From a virus, in the IMG/VR virus record IMGVR_UViG_3300033144_006345, positions 1 through 38,414 of that record: DNA of 38,414 bases. One strand, written 5' to 3'. The notes beneath the pieces are model-generated. The model ran no database searches. It was not told the origin of the DNA and saw nothing but the letters and a program-made list of their open reading frames with translations. Every line of letters begins with the position of its first letter. Position 1 is the stretch's first letter. This document shows, piece after piece, positions 3,824-38,044 of the stretch. Made by a program: the position numbers and the translations under genes.

Positions 3824-4825
3824 ATGGCAGTTCCGAGTTTAACACGGACAATCGATGATGCCTTTACCCATACCTGGTTTGAGATCAGGAAAAAAGCTAT
3901 TGACAATATCTTAAGTGCGACACCTATTGTTGCTGCACTTCGAGAGATGGGTTGTTTTAAAACCCAAGTCGGTGGTGAGTTTATTACGAGAACAGTCTCA
4001 TACGGGGAAAAGACAGCAGAGGATGTGACGAAAACGTCTACCCTCCCGTCAGGGGAGGATGACATTGAAACAATGGCTCGTTATACGTGGAAGTATCTTG
4101 CTGTTCATGTACAACGATCTATTATGGACGATCAGAAGAATAATGGTCCTAATAAGATTAAAAGTCTTGTTACGACTAAGTTGAATGCGGCCCGGAATGC
4201 TCTTAAACAGAAAACGGAAGGGAGCATGACGAATACGGAGAGTATACTTGAGACGTCAAATGCAGTCGGTGGGCTTATGAATATTGTGCCTGATAACGCA
4301 GGAGAAGCTCCAGCGACTACGTATGCGTCTACAGGTACTAGTACTCTAGGTAAGATTGATAAGAATAACGCTTGGTGGAGGCATCAGGTTAAAGCGGGAA
4401 TAGCTCCAATGGAAGTTAATCTAATCACAAGTATGAACAACATCTACAATACTTGTTCGGGTAACTTTGCTGATGAGGTTCCGAAACTTATCATCACAAC
4501 ACAAGCCATACATGAACTGTACGCAGAGTTTGTCCAGGATAAGGTCCAGATTGTTAAGGATGCTTCTACAAAGTTGGCCGACTTGGGGTTCGATGTGTTA
4601 AGGTTTAGAGGAAAACCTCTTATCTGGTCTAGTGATATCACCGCTGGGTATATGAAGTTTCTGAACACTGACTACATCGATGTTGTATACGACCCACAAC
4701 TGTGGTTTGAAATGACTGAATGGAAGCCGATTTATAATCAGCCGACGAGAATTGCACATATTATGTGCGCTCTTGAAACTGCTTGTAGTTCGCTTCGTCG
4801 TCAGGGTAGTTTGTACCTTACATAA
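3824..4825 (+). CDS. Major capsid protein
   Basis: The product has 333 residues and is the main head subunit candidate. The gene follows the scaffold, has a strong AAAGGAGATAAAA binding site, and is followed by a short hairpin and then a decoration-like gene, as is usual for highly expressed capsid genes. The N-terminus (residues 5-35) is helical. The body alternates beta-prone and Gly/Thr-rich segments, including a stretch with FADEVPKLIITTQAIHELY that resembles the peripheral-domain segments of HK97-fold capsids in which proteins test a stored target (IITT). No prohead cleavage site can be read with confidence. The HK97 fold is assumed from phage type; the capsid call rests on length and gene order. 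Confidence 0.8.
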   Translation: MAVPSLTRTIDDAFTHTWFEIRKKAIDNILSATPIVAALREMGCFKTQVGGEFITRTVSYGEKTAEDVTKTSTLPSGEDDIETMARYTWKYLAVHVQRSIMDDQKNNGPNKIKSLVTTKLNAARNALKQKTEGSMTNTESILETSNAVGGLMNIVPDNAGEAPATTYASTGTSTLGKIDKNNAWWRHQVKAGIAPMEVNLITSMNNIYNTCSGNFADEVPKLIITTQAIHELYAEFVQDKVQIVKDASTKLADLGFDVLRFRGKPLIWSSDITAGYMKFLNTDYIDVVYDPQLWFEMTEWKPIYNQPTRIAHIMCALETACSSLRRQGSLYLT

Positions 4826-4834
4826 GTTATACAG

Positions 4835-4849
4835 ATGTCATAATGACAT
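4835..4849 (+). terminator. Short hairpin after the capsid gene (weak terminator or processing site)
   Basis: ATGTCA (4835-4840) and TGACAT (4844-4849) form a perfect 6-bp inverted repeat with a 3-base loop, about ten bases after the capsid stop. Only TTGTTAGG follows, so there is no real U tract. It could attenuate transcription, stabilise the 3' end of the capsid message or be cut by RNase III. Efficient termination is unlikely. Confidence 0.35.
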
Positions 4850-4871
4850 TGTTAGGAAAAGGAGATAGAAA

Positions 4872-5405
4872 ATGGCTACTAATTCGGGACTTAAAAGTCT
4901 CTTTGTGACTGATTTAACCGATACTAGGACGGCTGCTCAAGGGGACGTCGAGGGTGTGGGTTCTATTAGGTTTGACAATGATGGGAAGGTTTATCGGTGG
5001 GTGAAGAATAATGAGGCTTATGCTCTCGCTGTTGGTGTCCCTGTTGTCCATGAGTGGGCTGATACTACCACGGCGTTGCAGAAGGTCTCCGTGGCTCTCA
5101 CAGCAAACCTAGGTTTCTTAGCTGGTGTTTGTATTTCAGCTATTCCTACATTAGGATTTGGCTGGATTCAAATCCAAGGCTATAATGCGGCTTGTTATGT
5201 CTCTGGTGAGACAGAAACAACAACGTATGCTGCAGGTTATTATTTGAAAGCTGTAAACGCTACGGGTACTGCGATGTCAACAGCATATATGACTAATGAT
5301 GCAGCTACACAGCCTTCATATAAGCGGAACATCCAAATGCAAGCAGTCTTGTCCACTGGAACAGTTAGTACAGCTCGGCCTGTTAGGATAAACTGTTTCG
5401 ACTGA
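4872..5405 (+). CDS. Probable head decoration protein
   Basis: The product has 177 residues rich in Ala, Thr, Gly and Val with regular beta-strand alternation and few charged residues in the second half. The region GWIQIQGYNAACYVSG and the following Thr/Ala-rich strands resemble small capsid-stabilising or decoration proteins. It lies directly downstream of the major capsid gene with a strong AAAAGGAGATAGAAA binding site, the usual place for a decoration protein. There is no signal peptide or membrane segment. A minor head protein or head fibre base would be the alternative. No sequence family is recognised with certainty. Confidence 0.55.
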   Translation: MATNSGLKSLFVTDLTDTRTAAQGDVEGVGSIRFDNDGKVYRWVKNNEAYALAVGVPVVHEWADTTTALQKVSVALTANLGFLAGVCISAIPTLGFGWIQIQGYNAACYVSGETETTTYAAGYYLKAVNATGTAMSTAYMTNDAATQPSYKRNIQMQAVLSTGTVSTARPVRINCFD

Positions 5406-30897: not shown

Positions 30898-31244
30898 TGG
30901 TGGAGGCGGTGGGAATCGAACCCACGTCCTGTAATATTTCAGCAAGTGATTCTACGTGTGTAGTCAGTTGTTTTCGATCTCTGTCGGTCAACTAACAAAC
31001 CTCAACGTCCTTTAATACGCCATAAGGCTCATCTGATTATAGTGTCAGAACCCGGCACACTTTTTTTACCTGCTGTTATAGACATGAACAATAGCAGGTG
31101 TCTTGCTCTGTCCACCGCTTTTACGCTGCGGCTCGCATTGGAGTGTTATTAGCACTTAAAATCATGAGTCAGTTTTACGAGATCAGCCTCATTCTCGACA
31201 CGCTACAGTTTGCTTCGATTATCCAGTCGATGCCATTCGCCCCC
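30898..31244 (-). ncRNA. ssrA: Phage-encoded tmRNA (transfer-messenger RNA)
   Basis: The transcript starts GGGGGCGAATGGCATCGAC, and this acceptor strand pairs with CGCCTCC before the encoded ACCA end (GTGGGTTCGATTCCCACC forms the T arm). Further hallmarks are GTCGAG...CTCGT of pseudoknot 1, a tag frame, and the segment GTTTGTTAGTTGACC near the 3' half as in other tmRNAs. The 347-nt length is normal. The tag frame at 31153-31121 is GCT AAT AAC ACT CCA ATG CGA GCC GCA GCG TAA, giving ANNTPMRAAA. tmRNA rescues stalled ribosomes with SmpB, which is presumably the host's. No promoter of its own is visible, so it is probably processed from a longer RNA. A short ORF track read across its 3' end ('GSIPTAST') is a translation artefact. 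Confidence 0.95.
31121..31153 (-). other. tmRNA tag-peptide reading frame (ANNTPMRAAA)
   Basis: Ten codons and a TAA follow the resume codon GCT at 31153-31151. After the Ala from the tmRNA itself, the ribosome would add A-N-N-T-P-M-R-A-A-A. The common ending is (L/V)AA; here Arg precedes AAA and the usual hydrophobic residue at the third position from the end is absent. AAGT just before GCT corresponds to the alanine resume context of bacterial tmRNAs. Confidence 0.85.
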
Positions 31245-31261
31245 AATAAGTTTTTTCATTT

Positions 31262-31321
31262 TCACCTTCCGACTTCGGGTATCCCGTGATGTATCCCCGG
31301 CTCAGGCCAGTTACTTTTCAT
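31262..31321 (-). CDS. 19-residue micropeptide B, paralogue of micropeptide A
   Basis: ATG 31321 to TGA 31262 encodes MKSNWPEPGIHHGIPEVGR. The ATG overlaps the TGA of the 90-residue gene upstream (ATGA), and GGGGGCGAGAAAAA precedes it as a binding site. A closely similar peptide is encoded at 31689-31630. The two differ at six codons only by synonymous third-base changes (GAA/GAG, CCT/CCG, GGA/GGG, ATC/ATA, CAC/CAT, GGT/GGA) and at four codons by amino acid. That excess of silent change is evidence that this frame is translated. The Trp-Pro-x-Pro-Gly-Ile-His core is unknown to me. It ends 18 bases before the tmRNA. Confidence 0.65.
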   Translation of the reverse strand: MKSNWPEPGIHHGIPEVGR

Positions 31322-31590
31322 TTTTTCTCGCCCCCTACTCCCACACCCCCTGTTGCAATATCTTTCAAAACATTGTTCGGGGCAGAAGAAGATTCGTCTT
31401 TCTTTACCGGGGGATACATCACCGACTTTAACATAGAATCAGCTAGTTGTGAGAGTTGTTCAGGGGTGAAAATCAGGATCATTTCGTTGCCGTCGGTAGT
31501 CAGCTTTAGTGTGTAGACGTGCAGTTGGGGATCATACTCAGTTTTGACGACCAGTTCCTTTGTAAGCTCGTAGAATGAAAGTGAACGCAT
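31318..31590 (-). CDS. Small protein of module B, unknown
   Basis: The product has 90 residues from ATG 31590, after AGGAGAGAGTAAA; the earlier in-frame start at 31623 has no binding site. The first 60 residues read as a small beta-alpha domain (VKTEYDPQLHVYTLKLTTDG, EMILIFTPEQLSQLADSML). The end is a Ser/Gly-rich tail, VGVGGEKK. The TEQ-type 'T-P-E-Q-L-x-Q-L-A' helix resembles other short phage proteins. Its stop overlaps the start of micropeptide B, so translation is probably coupled. The function is unknown. Confidence 0.65.
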   Translation of the reverse strand: MRSLSFYELTKELVVKTEYDPQLHVYTLKLTTDGNEMILIFTPEQLSQLADSMLKSVMYPPVKKDESSSAPNNVLKDIATGGVGVGGEKK

Positions 31591-31629
31591 TTTACTCTCT
31601 CCTAAAAAAGTTATATTCTTCAATATTCC

Positions 31630-31689
31630 TCAAATACCGGCGGCGGGTATCCCGATGTGGATTCCAGGTTCAGGCCAGTTACTTTTCAC
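31630..31689 (-). CDS. 19-residue micropeptide A, paralogue of micropeptide B
   Basis: GTG 31689 to TGA 31630 encodes MKSNWPEPGIHIGIPAAGI (first codon GTG). The GTG overlaps the TGA of the 48-residue ORF upstream (GTGA), with GGGGGAGGCGAAAAA as binding site in that ORF's last codons. The first eight codons after the start and four later codons code the same residues as micropeptide B. The shared upstream G-rich binding site and stop-start overlap make the two modules true duplicates. No signal peptide or membrane segment is seen. The function is unknown. Confidence 0.6.
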   Translation of the reverse strand: MKSNWPEPGIHIGIPAAGI

Positions 31690-31832
31690 TTTTTCGCCTC
31701 CCCCGGATAGTAAACCAGATCATCTTCCATCATCGTTCGAAGTTTGTCCGTCGGCCGCCCCCATTTGGCTATAGCCAGGCTTGTCTGTGCGGTATCGAGC
31801 CTTTGTTTTGCAAGATTAAGTAATCCTGCCAC
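31686..31832 (-). CDS. 48-residue ORF of module A (possible gene overlapping RNA structure)
   Basis: GTG 31832 to TGA 31686 encodes 48 residues, beginning AGLLNLAKQRLDTAQTSLA and ending DDLVYYPGEAKK. The Ala/Leu/Lys helix pattern and the ordered end look protein-like. However, no ribosome binding site is seen, and an in-frame TTG (31841) is also possible. The same DNA holds a perfect 10-bp inverted repeat (31832-31841 with 31744-31753) and internal hairpins, so it may instead be, or also be, an extension of the large RNA. The stop overlaps the start of micropeptide A. The two readings cannot be separated by eye. Confidence 0.4.
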   Translation of the reverse strand: MAGLLNLAKQRLDTAQTSLAIAKWGRPTDKLRTMMEDDLVYYPGEAKK

Positions 31833-31841
31833 GACGGACAA
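31744..31841 (-). ncRNA. Possible additional RNA domain closed by a 10-bp helix
   Basis: On the minus strand TTGTCCGTCG (31841-31832) is perfectly complementary to CGACGGACAA (31753-31744). Between them GCAGGATT/AATCTTGC (8 bp with one G-U, ACTT loop) and TGGCTATAGCCA (palindromic hairpin) can form. The domain lies 5 bases after the U tract of the large RNA. It could be a last domain of that RNA, in which case the U tract would be a linker, or a separate structure over the 48-residue ORF. Confidence 0.4.
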
Positions 31842-31846
31842 TTTTC

Positions 31847-31976
31847 AAAAAAGCTGCCTGGCCGGGCTCGAAACCGACTTCGTGCTTTCTTCCCGTAACG
31901 CAATAGGCCGGGCTGTACAGTCTTGCACGATCTTCCTATTACACAAGTGCGTTTCCTTCAACGCTGCAGGCAGCTT
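31847..31976 (-). terminator. Terminal helix and U tract of the large RNA
   Basis: AAGCTGCCTG (31976-31967) pairs perfectly with CAGGCAGCTT (31860-31851), and the sequence continues into a run of six T (31852-31847). It reads as an intrinsic terminator with a large internal structured loop of about 105 nt. It closes the last domain of the large RNA. Read-through would be needed for the downstream micropeptide modules and tmRNA unless they have their own promoter. Confidence 0.55.
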
Positions 31977-31989
31977 ATTGTCAAAGAAA
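31977..31989 (-). repeat. Internal motif CTTTGACAAT, copy 3 of large RNA
   Basis: The sequence TTTCTTTGACAATAA on the minus strand repeats the motif of copies 1 and 2 (32428-32441 and 32226-32238). Each copy immediately follows the 3' strand of a domain-closing helix; here that strand is CCGTCCC at 31996-31990. Confidence 0.6.
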
Positions 31990-32225
31990 GGGACGGGATT
32001 TCATCTTATTTGTACTTAATTTTTCGTACAAATTATGGGCCTGTTCCGTGTGCCATCACGTCTATCCGTCCCTAAGTTTTTAAAGTAAGGGGCAACCGCT
32101 TGCCTATTTCCGCACCTTATTTATCACATGTGACCCGGCTAACTCATAGTAGCGGGGTAGGCTGGCCGGTGAGCAGGACTTCGACGGCCATTTAACAGAT
32201 GCGCAACGGCTGCCCCAATTTTTCG

Positions 32226-32238
32226 AATTGTCAAAGAA
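32226..32238 (-). repeat. Internal motif CTTTGACAAT, copy 2 of large RNA
   Basis: The sequence TTTCTTTGACAATT follows CACATCAT (32249-32242), the 3' strand of the long-range 8-bp helix. It matches copy 3 in ten consecutive bases and copy 1 except for one C/T difference. Confidence 0.6.
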
Positions 32239-32427
32239 AAGATGATGTGTCCGTTTCTCAACGGAAGGCTTTTATATTATGGCTTTTCAAATTAATGCAT
32301 ACTTTCGGTTTCCCTGGCATTACGACCGTGTTATTGCTCCTAAACAATAACAGATTATCTGCGAATAGCCAATCCGCTGGAGCTTTCAATAACGAGCGTC
32401 CTCGTATACCCGCTCCGCACATCATTT

Positions 32428-32441
32428 AATTATCAAAGAGA
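32428..32441 (-). repeat. Internal motif CTTTGATAAT, copy 1 of large RNA
   Basis: The sequence TCTCTTTGATAATT follows CGCC (32446-32443), the 3' strand of the first closing helix. Together with the other two copies it marks three equivalent positions between domains. Confidence 0.55.
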
Positions 32442-32515
32442 CGGCGTTGATCCTGATATATCACAAAGTGCCTGAATTGTCCTGACAGGCACACCGCCAC
32501 CTAGTTTAAAAGAAC

Positions 32516-32521
32516 ATTATA
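32516..32521 (-). promoter_or_regulatory. -10 box TATAAT ahead of the large RNA
   Basis: A perfect TATAAT on the minus strand is placed so that transcription would start at about 32508, just before the first helix. No strong -35 box is at 17 bases (ACAATT); a TTGTTA exists but with only a 12-base spacer. The element could need an activator or an extended contact, or be phage sigma dependent. The large RNA is otherwise downstream of the sigma-like gene and could be read from it. Confidence 0.5.
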
Positions 32522-32533
32522 CCCCATCCTTTT

Positions 32534-32546
32534 TAACAAATTGTTA
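32534..32546. promoter_or_regulatory. 13-bp palindrome over the -35 region
   Basis: TAACAAATTGTTA is a perfect inverted repeat with a single central base. It overlaps the stop codon of the sigma-like gene and the place where a -35 box would be read for the TATAAT at 32521-32516. Its position is typical of an operator controlling the large RNA. Confidence 0.4.
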
Positions 32547-33041
32547 TAATAAATGGTTAAGAAGATCCTCACTATCCTTTAACGAGATTGAGTTTTTCAT
32601 TTTAGATAAAGCCTTTACCGTTTTCGATACTACGGTTGAGGGAGGGATATTCATTATCTTTGCAATTTTTTTATACGTTAGTTTTTCATAAAAGTGTAGA
32701 TAAATTATAGTAAGTTCTGTTCCGTTTAGATCAGCGTTCTCTGATAAAACATTAAGAACATCCTTTAACCGTTGTTCATTTGATGTCTTTGATGTGTTTG
32801 ATGTGTCGGGTATATCAGGGGATAAACTTACTGGAGTATCCCTTAATGTTAAGGTTCGAAGTTTATCATATAGAAGAAACTTTATTTTCTTGTATAAGAC
32901 ATCTTGCTCAGGGTGTTTAAGATAGAAAAGAGTAATATCTGACACAAAGTCGTCAAGGAGGTAAAAAGTAAACCTATATTTCAGATAAATCTTCCTTGCA
33001 TAATTCCTTGCTTTGTCTAATCTTTCCTTTTGGTTATCCAT
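32544..33041 (-). CDS. Sigma-like regulator with region 4 helix-turn-helix
   Basis: The product has 165 residues. Residues 1-70 form helices with aromatic residues (YLLDDFVSDITLFYLKHPEQD) reminiscent of the sigma region 2 core. Residues 105-155 contain ELTIIYLHFYEKLTYKKIAKIMNIPPSTVVSKTVKALSKMK, the typical sigma region 4 helix-turn-helix (L-T-Y-x-x-I-A-x-x-M-N-I-x-x-S-T-V). It is shorter than ECF sigma factors, so it may be a degenerate or anti-host sigma or an RNA polymerase co-factor. It is directly upstream of the large RNA, with only the palindrome and the -10 box between them, so it may drive that promoter. The ribosome binding site is AGAAAGGATTAAGA. Confidence 0.65.
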   Translation of the reverse strand: MDNQKERLDKARNYARKIYLKYRFTFYLLDDFVSDITLFYLKHPEQDVLYKKIKFLLYDKLRTLTLRDTPVSLSPDIPDTSNTSKTSNEQRLKDVLNVLSENADLNGTELTIIYLHFYEKLTYKKIAKIMNIPPSTVVSKTVKALSKMKNSISLKDSEDLLNHLL

Positions 33042-33057: not shown

Positions 33058-33294
33058 TTAAAGGAAATTATATATTTTATCTAGTTCGATAGATGAAATA
33101 TTTAATGAGTTTAATATATCTAAGGTTTTCTTACTGATTTTTTCCCTTGTTTTCCTTTCTTTGACAACTCTTTTTTGTTTAATGAGTCTAAGGGTACGTA
33201 GGTCTTTTAGAAAAGCCTCCTTACGGTTAGGAAAAGGAATAATGTTAGGGAGGACACATTTTGTTGTGCTTATTACGAATTCTTCTTCAATCAT
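33058..33294 (-). CDS. Small basic helical protein, unknown
   Basis: The product has 78 residues. The N-terminal part (EEFVISTTKCVLPNIIPFPNR) is followed by a run of Lys/Arg-rich helix (LKDLRTLRLIKQKRVVKERK) and a second helix near the end (TLDILNSLNISSIELDKIY). The basic helix suggests nucleic-acid or RNA polymerase contact; this is inference. It lies between the Xre-like gene, with an 8-base overlap, and the sigma-like gene (16-base gap), a plausible regulatory trio. The ribosome binding site AAAGGACCATAAAAA precedes ATG 33294. Confidence 0.5.
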   Translation of the reverse strand: MIEEEFVISTTKCVLPNIIPFPNRKEAFLKDLRTLRLIKQKRVVKERKTREKISKKTLDILNSLNISSIELDKIYNFL

Positions 33295-37008: not shown

Positions 37009-37296
37009 TTTATTATCTCCTTTAAAAAAGTTTCCTTTCTTTGTCTTACCGGTTTGTTTAAATAATGTCATCGAGTGACGTGGGTGTTTTGATATTGTTA
37101 GGCAAATGTAGTGGTTTTCTTAATATTGTATCCTTTAGCTTGAAGCAAGCTATGAGTAATAAGTGTAGTAAATCCCTTGCTTACTTATGCTTGCTTATGC
37201 TTGCTTATGTTTACTTAGGGTAAGGGGTAAACTAACAAAATGGTTAGTTTATGCTGTTTTTGGTATCCAAATGTTTTAAAAAGGGTCAATGTTAAG

Positions 37297-37475
37297 GTGA
37301 TAGTTTTTATGGTGTTGCGTAATTCCAGGTGTCCTTTGTGATAGTTATTAGGGTGTTAAGTAAATGTATGTAAATGTATTACTTACGGGGGTGATAATTC
37401 TCATTGCTTGCTTCGGGCAAATGATAATTCTAATAACCAAATGTCTTGCTTATGTTATATAAAAAGGTGATAGTT
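37297..37475 (+). repeat. GTGATAGTT direct repeats
   Basis: GTGATAGTT occurs at 37297-37305, 37338-37346 and 37467-37475. Variants GTGATAATT (37391-37399) and ATGATAATT (37421-37429) lie between. All five copies are in the same orientation within 180 bases, as iterons or binding sites of one protein would be. Confidence 0.6.
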
Positions 37476-37627
37476 TTATATAGTATCGAGCAAGTGTTTT
37501 GGTAATAATAAATGTAGTTTTCCAAGGCCGTTTTGGTTATAAGTCGTTATCCTATATTTACTTAGGCTACTTACTAGGTGGTAAAGTTAGTTGAGTTGGT
37601 CGAATGTTAGTTGAAATGTTAATGTTA

Positions 37628-37860
37628 TAACCCCTTACTACATAATAACTTATGGCAATGTTAGAAGTATTAGAAAGTTAGATGGGTTAGTTTTGAAACA
37701 CTGCCACATTTGCTGTAGTGGATGTATTTATTTTTTTTTTTTTTTTTTTTTTTAAGAAAGACCCGGCAAGTGGCGTATGTGAGGGTAACTAAAAAATAGC
37801 CCCCAGCTAAGTAACTAAAACAACTAACATTAATATAAAGTGTTATGTAGTAAGGGGTTA
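37628..37860. repeat. Long inverted repeat around a T23 tract
   Basis: TAACCCCTTACTACATAA (37628-37645) is the perfect 18-bp reverse complement of 37843-37860. In the same register AATGTTAG (37657-37664) matches CTAACATT (37824-37831), giving 37-bp imperfect arms with a 159-bp centre. The centre holds 23 consecutive T at 37731-37753. Confidence 0.7.
37731..37753 (+). repeat. Homopolymer run of 23 T
   Basis: Twenty-three T's in a row (preceded by ATTTA) are by far the longest homopolymer in the window. Length may be uncertain because sequencing and replication slip on such runs. Position at the centre of the inverted repeat suggests a functional or a slippage-prone site. Confidence 0.7.
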
Positions 37861-37997
37861 GGGTGATGGGTTTCCAGCTAACCTTAACTACGTTTAACTA
37901 ATTTACAAGAAAAGTGTGAGACATTAGTTTATGTAAGGCTTTTTAAGGGCTTGTGTTTTTTAAGGGGGTAAGGGGTACGGGTTGGGTTTTTAAATGC

Positions 37998-38009
37998 CGT
38001 GGTACCACG
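37998..38009. promoter_or_regulatory. 12-bp palindrome CGTGGTACCACG
   Basis: A perfect GC-richer palindrome in an AT-rich stretch, 36 bases before the stop of the gene at 38045. Such sites usually bind a dimeric regulator or mark a cleavage site. No function can be read. Confidence 0.4.
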
Positions 38010-38044
38010 TTTCCCGGCCATTTTGCCCCCTTTGCACAAAACCC

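Follow-up and report, generated by a model that had tools for sequence, protein, structure and literature searches.

Genomic context of the predicted RNA

The window analyzed here is the whole of the 38.4-kb viral record IMGVR_UViG_3300033144_006345 (38,414 nt), from a phage whose genes include those for a P22-like portal protein and for a DNA polymerase of family A that carries a fused uracil-DNA glycosylase domain. Read 5' to 3' along the minus strand, the locus of interest comprises a sigma-70 region 4 protein, a 663-nt stretch, a small frame, a frame of about 100 amino acids and a complete tmRNA:

32544-33041, minus strand: sigma-70 region 4 protein, encoded 5' of the RNA (Pfam E 8e-10)
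Somewhere from 32544 to 32500, minus strand: 5' end of the predicted large RNA
31846-32508, minus strand: predicted large untranslated RNA; intergenic, with no gene-like frame, folding z -2.8 to -3.3 and four boxA-type junctions
31686-31841, minus strand: small coding-like frame (KLSVVAGLLNLAKQ...PGEAKK), from its positive codon score and translation; start codon uncertain
31318-31623, minus strand: small protein frame of about 100 aa in the interval between RNA and tmRNA, of no known family
30898-31244, minus strand: tmRNA with tag ANNTPMRAAA (Rfam 141 bits; also called by ARAGORN)

Both neighbors named in the original prediction, the tmRNA and the sigma-like gene, are present. The tag of this phage tmRNA is unusual, and a DNA search of phage and plasmid collections returned no similar tmRNA. 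The stretch just 3' of the RNA (31841-31686), which had been overlooked, reads as a small coding frame and not as RNA only, and is also able to form the hairpin GUCCGUCG/CGACGGAC (fold z -3.55). Two paralogous 19-codon frames, VKSNWPEPGIHIGIPAAGI (31689-31630) and MKSNWPEPGIHHGIPEVGR (31321-31262), were also seen on the minus strand; each overlaps the stop of the preceding gene, one lying just 5' of the 100-aa gene and the other just 5' of the tmRNA. Elsewhere in the window, another non-coding stretch, about 970 bp long (37072-38044), holds a 10-nt tandem repeat (TGCTTACTTA), a long T-run and a 59-nt imperfect inverted repeat (37628-37686/37802-37860), and its folding z-scores, on either strand, are lower than anywhere else in the phage; it is possible that this is a replication origin or genome-end region.

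Searches of phages for DNA similar to the stretch returned only short chance matches, no homologues were reached through the sigma-like protein, and the single DNA polymerase sequence found no relatives. A DNA polymerase alignment retrieved 80 relatives, the nearest of which are 40 to 44% identical and keep the polymerase, methylase and nuclease. In L041 and L042 a distant sigma homologue occupies the same place, with the RNA absent in both, and the tmRNA was absent from all 30 relatives scanned. Because the nearest relatives lack the RNA and the scanned relatives lack the tmRNA, the RNA-tmRNA block looks like an accessory to this phage lineage. On sequence comparison, the specific large RNA appears to be unique so far.

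Coding potential, composition and folding energy

The earlier claim that the stretch holds no credible gene stood up to analysis: no frame within 31846-32508 has gene-like codon usage without stops. The GC content is raised, as had also been predicted, at 46.3% versus 38.8% for the window. Compared with dinucleotide shuffles, the minus-strand stretch folds with z = -2.8 to -3.3 (0 of 200 shuffles as stable) and the plus strand with z of about -1.3; an earlier estimate from only 20 shuffles had given -4.2. When 680-nt windows along the phage were scanned with a lighter procedure, 26 of 126 equaled or surpassed the stretch, so folding stability does not single it out, and 200-nt windows within the RNA folded unremarkably. 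Given these results, folding energy was set aside as insufficient proof of structure. The modeled energy alone weakly supports structure, and the arrangement of domains and boxA copies described below is the stronger evidence.

The signals proposed for the two ends of the RNA were only partly borne out. A TATAAT does lie upstream, at about 32521-32516, but it has no -35 partner by consensus, and no sigma-70 promoter was recognizable upstream of the RNA. The sequence described as a 10-bp terminal helix with U6 is also present, but its loop exceeds 100 nt, and no intrinsic terminator was called at 31846. The U-run at that position makes better sense as a fourth, degenerate boxA, UUUUUGAAAAU.

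boxA copies and predicted domains within the stretch

Three exact copies of UCUUUGAYAAU, which the original prediction overlooked, lie within the stretch, all on the RNA strand. The whole window holds no further exact copies, and the number expected in 660 nt of this strand is 0.0011, versus the 3 observed. The copies and the predicted domains between them follow in transcript order:

32440-32505, minus strand: domain 0, hairpin UGUGCCUG/CAGGCAC within a GGCG/CGCC helix, 5' of copy 1 (fold z -0.96, weak)
32429-32439, minus strand: boxA copy 1, UCUUUGAUAAU, exact; unpaired probability 0.61, 83rd percentile of the RNA
32242-32425, minus strand: domain 1, closed by AUGAUGUG/CACAUCAU, flush with copies 1 and 2 (z -2.97)
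32227-32237, minus strand: boxA copy 2, UCUUUGACAAU, exact; unpaired probability 0.61, 84th percentile
32089-32216, minus strand: domain 2a, closed by GGGGCAGCCG../CGGUUGCCCC (fold z -1.6, weak)
31990-32072, minus strand: domain 2b, closed by GGGACGG/CCGUCCC (z -3.85, 0 of 200 shuffles)
31977-31987, minus strand: boxA copy 3, UCUUUGACAAU, exact; unpaired probability 0.92, 99th percentile
31852-31975, minus strand: domain 3, closed by AGCUGCCUG/CAGGCAGCU, flush with copies 3 and 4 (z -3.31, 0 of 200 shuffles)
31841-31851, minus strand: degenerate boxA-like copy 4, UUUUUGAAAAU (the U6 tail), one mismatch to TCTTTGANAAT

The long-range helices of the original prediction are found here as the closing helices, with AUGAUGUG/CACAUCAU of 8 bp, GGGACGG/CCGUCCC of 7 to 8 bp, AGCUGCCUG/CAGGCAGCU of 9 to 10 bp, and GGGGCAGCCG../CGGUUGCCCC among them. 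The z values of domains 1, 2b and 3 come from folding each one on its own. The 8-bp helix of domain 1 begins 3 nt past copy 1, and 4 nt separate its end from copy 2, a placement with p 0.0008 against random intervals of equal length (0.018 when G-U pairs are allowed). The helix of domain 3, counted at 9 bp, begins 1 nt past copy 3 and at its other end lies directly against copy 4, with p 0.00045 in the same comparison (0.009 with G-U pairs). The interval from copy 2 to copy 3 has no single closing helix; it holds two sub-domains instead, the second of which ends 2 nt before copy 3. The boxA copies are predicted to be single-stranded between the domains; copy 4 is not unusually unpaired in the predicted ensemble.

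All of these copies are on the RNA strand, with the tmRNA downstream. Lambda-type nut sites consist of a boxA followed by a boxB hairpin and act with an N-type protein. A comparison can be made at copy 2 alone, where a possible 15-nt hairpin (CAAUU-CGAAA-AAUUG) lies downstream and overlaps the boxA.

Domain 3 has some tRNA-like traits, including a stem of acceptor length, a GG-containing loop near its 5' side and a UUUCGAGC loop near its 3' side. The best match to a covariance model of this domain in 589 kb was a phage tRNA-Arg, at a weak 20.4 bits. Neither ARAGORN nor the Rfam tRNA model called a tRNA in the stretch, and the separate tmRNA was the only such gene recognized.

Identity of the motif

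By its sequence, UCUUUGAYAAU is a natural form of the rrn boxA, the site of NusB/S10 antitermination. A collection of 84,980 species genomes was searched for TTCTTTGACAAT followed at 125-155 nt by a 16S start, and 12 contigs carried this arrangement; in the eight whose sequence was read out, the spacings are 126 to 155 nt. Their taxa were Acidiferrales, Bacteroidota, Lentisphaeria, Nocardioides, Magnetococcales, Elusimicrobia and one unclassified bacterium. Copies 2 and 3 are identical to this rrn leader element, copy 1 has U for C, and copy 4 is degenerate. The gammaproteobacterial boxA consensus is GYTCTTTAANA (PMC5725501), to which the UUUCUUUGACA of the window is a mismatch, with no 5' G and with G for A at position 8. 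The form found in the window is that of other phyla. In E. coli, boxA takes the form UGCUCUUUAACAAU.

In ribosomal RNA operons, boxA binds NusB with S10 and is necessary and sufficient to recruit the rrn antitermination complex (PMC10250234). The element is repeated, occurring ahead of both 16S and 23S, and it has been proposed that keeping boxA tethered to the polymerase promotes the leader-trailer helix around 16S rRNA (PMC10250234).

boxA in phage tRNA arrays and beside GOLLD

An IMG/VR scan for two motif copies near the spacing seen in the window returned 34 contigs, most of them coding. The non-coding ones were L005 and L010, where the motif heads tRNA arrays and lies on the tRNA strand; L120 and L121 fit by boxA spacing but are coding, and were rejected as homologues. 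Several copies in L005 and L010 adjoin a helix, of 13 bp (p 0.008), 16 bp (p 0.002) or 9 bp (p 0.018), and the same flush-helix test fails for L156 and several other copies.

A direct test in IMG/VR for TTCTTTGACAAT preceding a T-arm motif by 48 to 78 nt retrieved 23 contigs (roughly 18 independent, judged by repeated flanking sequence). All 23 were in tRNA-bearing regions with the motif on the tRNA strand, and a reversed-motif control retrieved 1 contig. Twenty whole records contained 28 motif copies, versus 1 copy of the reversed control. In L156 (IMGVR_UViG_3300044940_000646; regions 2416-2767 and 4823-5179), three copies spaced by 165 nt delimit two nearly identical units and are followed by a tRNA-Thr, with a permuted tmRNA 2 kb further on. 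In L139 a boxA copy precedes two tRNAs and a tmRNA.

An observation apart from these is that on the minus strand of L010 (IMGVR_UViG_3300032164_000003), between about 2340 and 1600, circularly permuted tRNA genes stand in a row, with the T-arm half before the D-arm half; ARAGORN and Rfam both missed them. Their repeated frame is TTTTGGrCAAATGC...GACTACAT...ACTCGTTGkcCAA, and one of them reads as a tRNA-Asp with the 7-bp acceptor stem GGGCGAG/CTCGCCC.

A GOLLD RNA was found within a boxA-bearing tRNA array in a 364-kb phage (L164, G004:C1:232500-240500; E 3e-61). Upstream of this GOLLD, in the section from tRNA-Ile to tRNA-Leu, the order is TTGACA, a spacer, TATAAT, GCTCTTTAACA, tRNA-Leu and GOLLD. 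The GCTCTTTAACA element is a perfect match to the gamma boxA consensus and stands behind a sigma-70-type promoter; a further exact TTCTTTGACAAT is present 1.8 kb upstream. Among 395 cellular genomes, one actinobacterial GOLLD has an imperfect GTTGTTTGACAAG about 350 nt upstream, which was not used as evidence because it is near chance level, and no boxA was seen before GOLLD in 369 genomes of another class. No boxA was found in the pMP118 ROOL either, nor in the large RNAs from phages ICP1 and K. A limited literature search returned no paper linking boxA to phage tRNA arrays or to GOLLD or ROOL.

Comparison with known RNAs

The original prediction had offered GOLLD or ROOL as the identity of the RNA, and this was not sustained: there was no Rfam match at the gathering threshold, and a lax-filter search of 31200-32700 at E up to 10 also returned none. 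Both memberships were rejected at that threshold, the GOLLD model (RF02032) being one of the conserved 3' region and the ROOL model being RF03087. As positive controls, the same models recovered ROOL in L. salivarius pMP118 (E 1e-29) and GOLLD in the 364-kb phage (E 3e-61). With one sequence, no homologues and no covariation, there is no basis for claiming a third RNA class.

GOLLD forms a 14-mer RNA cage and ROOL a homo-octamer cage (PMC12286853). The RNA of the window resembles GOLLD as a large multi-domain phage RNA, and the likeness extends to the mode of transcription, since one GOLLD-bearing tRNA array has boxA elements upstream on the same strand, but there is no match in sequence or structure, the boxA copies are inside the RNA, and the neighbor is a tmRNA rather than a tRNA array. 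With ROOL it shares a similar length (the ROOL model has 574 positions) and a mobile-element location; the ROOL model does not match it, however, and the pMP118 ROOL locus is without boxA. Vibrio phage ICP1 and staphylococcal phage K have large non-coding RNAs that are highly transcribed (PMC7567579, PMC9241854) and likewise occupy ORF-less stretches of similar size, but no boxA is present in either, and the stretch has no detectable similarity to phage records.

Like several rrn leaders, the RNA of the window carries the same element sequence on the RNA strand, repeated between domains and placed immediately 5' to the helix by which a long domain is closed. It differs in belonging to a phage, in having domains of about 120 to 190 nt rather than 1.5 to 3 kb, in its three or four copies 200 to 250 nt apart, and in containing no recognized rRNA or tRNA. 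The boxA-headed phage tRNA arrays (L005, L010, L156, L137-L159) share the same motif on the same strand, with copies recurring every 165 to 250 nt in L005 and L156 and helix-closed domains after boxA in L005 and L010. Those arrays contain tRNAs, whereas the RNA of the window has none, and there is no sequence similarity beyond boxA.

A proposed boxA-punctuated transcript and its alternatives

Leaving aside its identification as GOLLD or ROOL, the large structured phage non-coding RNA of the original prediction is the best reading of the stretch, which is probably a genuine large non-coding RNA that is expressed like rRNA. The account we favor, and hold to be fairly likely, is that of a boxA-punctuated RNA made with host NusB-S10 antitermination and tethered folding, with probable read-through to the tmRNA; the binding and the transcription are what we infer from the motif. 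The RNA would be an untranslated minus-strand transcript of about 660 nt, a chain of folded domains parted by rrn-type boxA elements. Host NusB-S10 (NusE) would bind each nascent boxA and stay on the elongating RNA polymerase, and the boxA-loaded polymerase would resist Rho, which otherwise halts a long ribosome-free transcript. Repetition of boxA would reload the complex after each domain, and each tethered boxA would hold the 5' strand of the closing helix that follows it close to the RNA exit until the 3' strand emerges. The modified polymerase would then probably continue through the small genes to the phage tmRNA. The product would most likely be a translation-related structural RNA, or several after processing, made in quantity during infection like phage tRNA arrays and GOLLD. 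For the function of the large RNA itself, this is a guess.

In favor of this account we count the rarity of the motif and its confinement to the RNA strand of the stretch, its identity with rrn leader boxA, its placement in phage tRNA arrays including the one with GOLLD, the tethering described for rRNA, the closing helices that are flush with boxA in domains 1 and 3 and those that follow boxA in L005 and L010. Against it count the lack of a homologue, the unexceptional folding energy, the lack of a recognizable sigma-70 promoter, the unclosed interval between copies 2 and 3, the failures of the flush-helix test, and the ROOL of pMP118 and the ICP1 and phage K RNAs, which do without boxA.

Among the alternatives, it seems unlikely, though still worth weighing, that the stretch is a divergent or new ornate RNA of the GOLLD or ROOL type, compact, multi-domain and possibly a homo-oligomer, in which the boxA copies are incidental transcription signals. 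Its length, multi-domain fold, phage location and tmRNA neighbor resemble those classes, and boxA also occurs in a GOLLD-bearing array; however, Rfam returned no match at E up to 10 with models that work in positive controls, there is no tRNA array here and there are no homologues, and the boxA copies lie inside the RNA and not only in a leader. A slightly less probable reading is that the tRNA genes of an array have decayed, leaving their boxA copies and the surviving tmRNA in a transcribed remnant with no function of its own. Such a remnant would fit the typical association of boxA with phage tRNA arrays and the tRNA-like domain 3, whose model found a tRNA-Arg at 20 bits as its best match in 589 kb. 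That model matched only one of several hundred tRNAs searched, though, ARAGORN and the Rfam tRNA model were empty across the stretch, and the perfect long-range helices and intact boxA copies speak against decay.

Two further readings we consider improbable. The RNA might be a decoy that, during infection, uses its repeated boxA sites to titrate host NusB-S10 and thereby lowers rRNA synthesis or the rRNA antitermination complex; the RNA does offer several clean boxA copies, with copy 3 strongly exposed, but a decoy would not need closed domains between its sites, and a single boxA at the head of tRNA arrays fits a cis role better. We give equally little credence to an antisense regulator that binds, through its UUUCUUUGACAA repeats, to mRNA from the gene upstream at 33294-33058. 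That gene contains a perfect 14-nt complement to boxA copy 3 (33155-33168 versus 31977-31990), but the BLAST E value is only 0.29 within the window, making the significance marginal, and the complement falls within coding sequence and is absent from the matching region of the distant L042 homologue. Antisense pairing would also leave the placement of the motif in tRNA arrays unexplained.

Implications for phage RNA synthesis

The presence of the rrn boxA in phage tRNA arrays, one of them with GOLLD, is the general finding most worth following. Long untranslated RNAs should be targets of Rho, and in the literature we found, the full-length synthesis of the giant RNAs and tRNA arrays of phages is unexplained. 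A repeated rrn boxA offers a concrete and testable answer, and polymerase-tethered folding, as in ribosome assembly, is a suggested reason for the multi-domain layout. The element also provides a search handle for phage RNAs that covariance models miss, and the boxA motif search has already retrieved unannotated structured and permuted tRNA loci. More speculatively, and as a possibility that we hold only tentatively, the RNA described here may represent a class of phage RNAs made like pre-rRNA, with boxA held through NusB-S10 for each domain. If that is true, boxA antitermination would be a general route by which phages make long untranslated RNA, from tRNA arrays to GOLLD.
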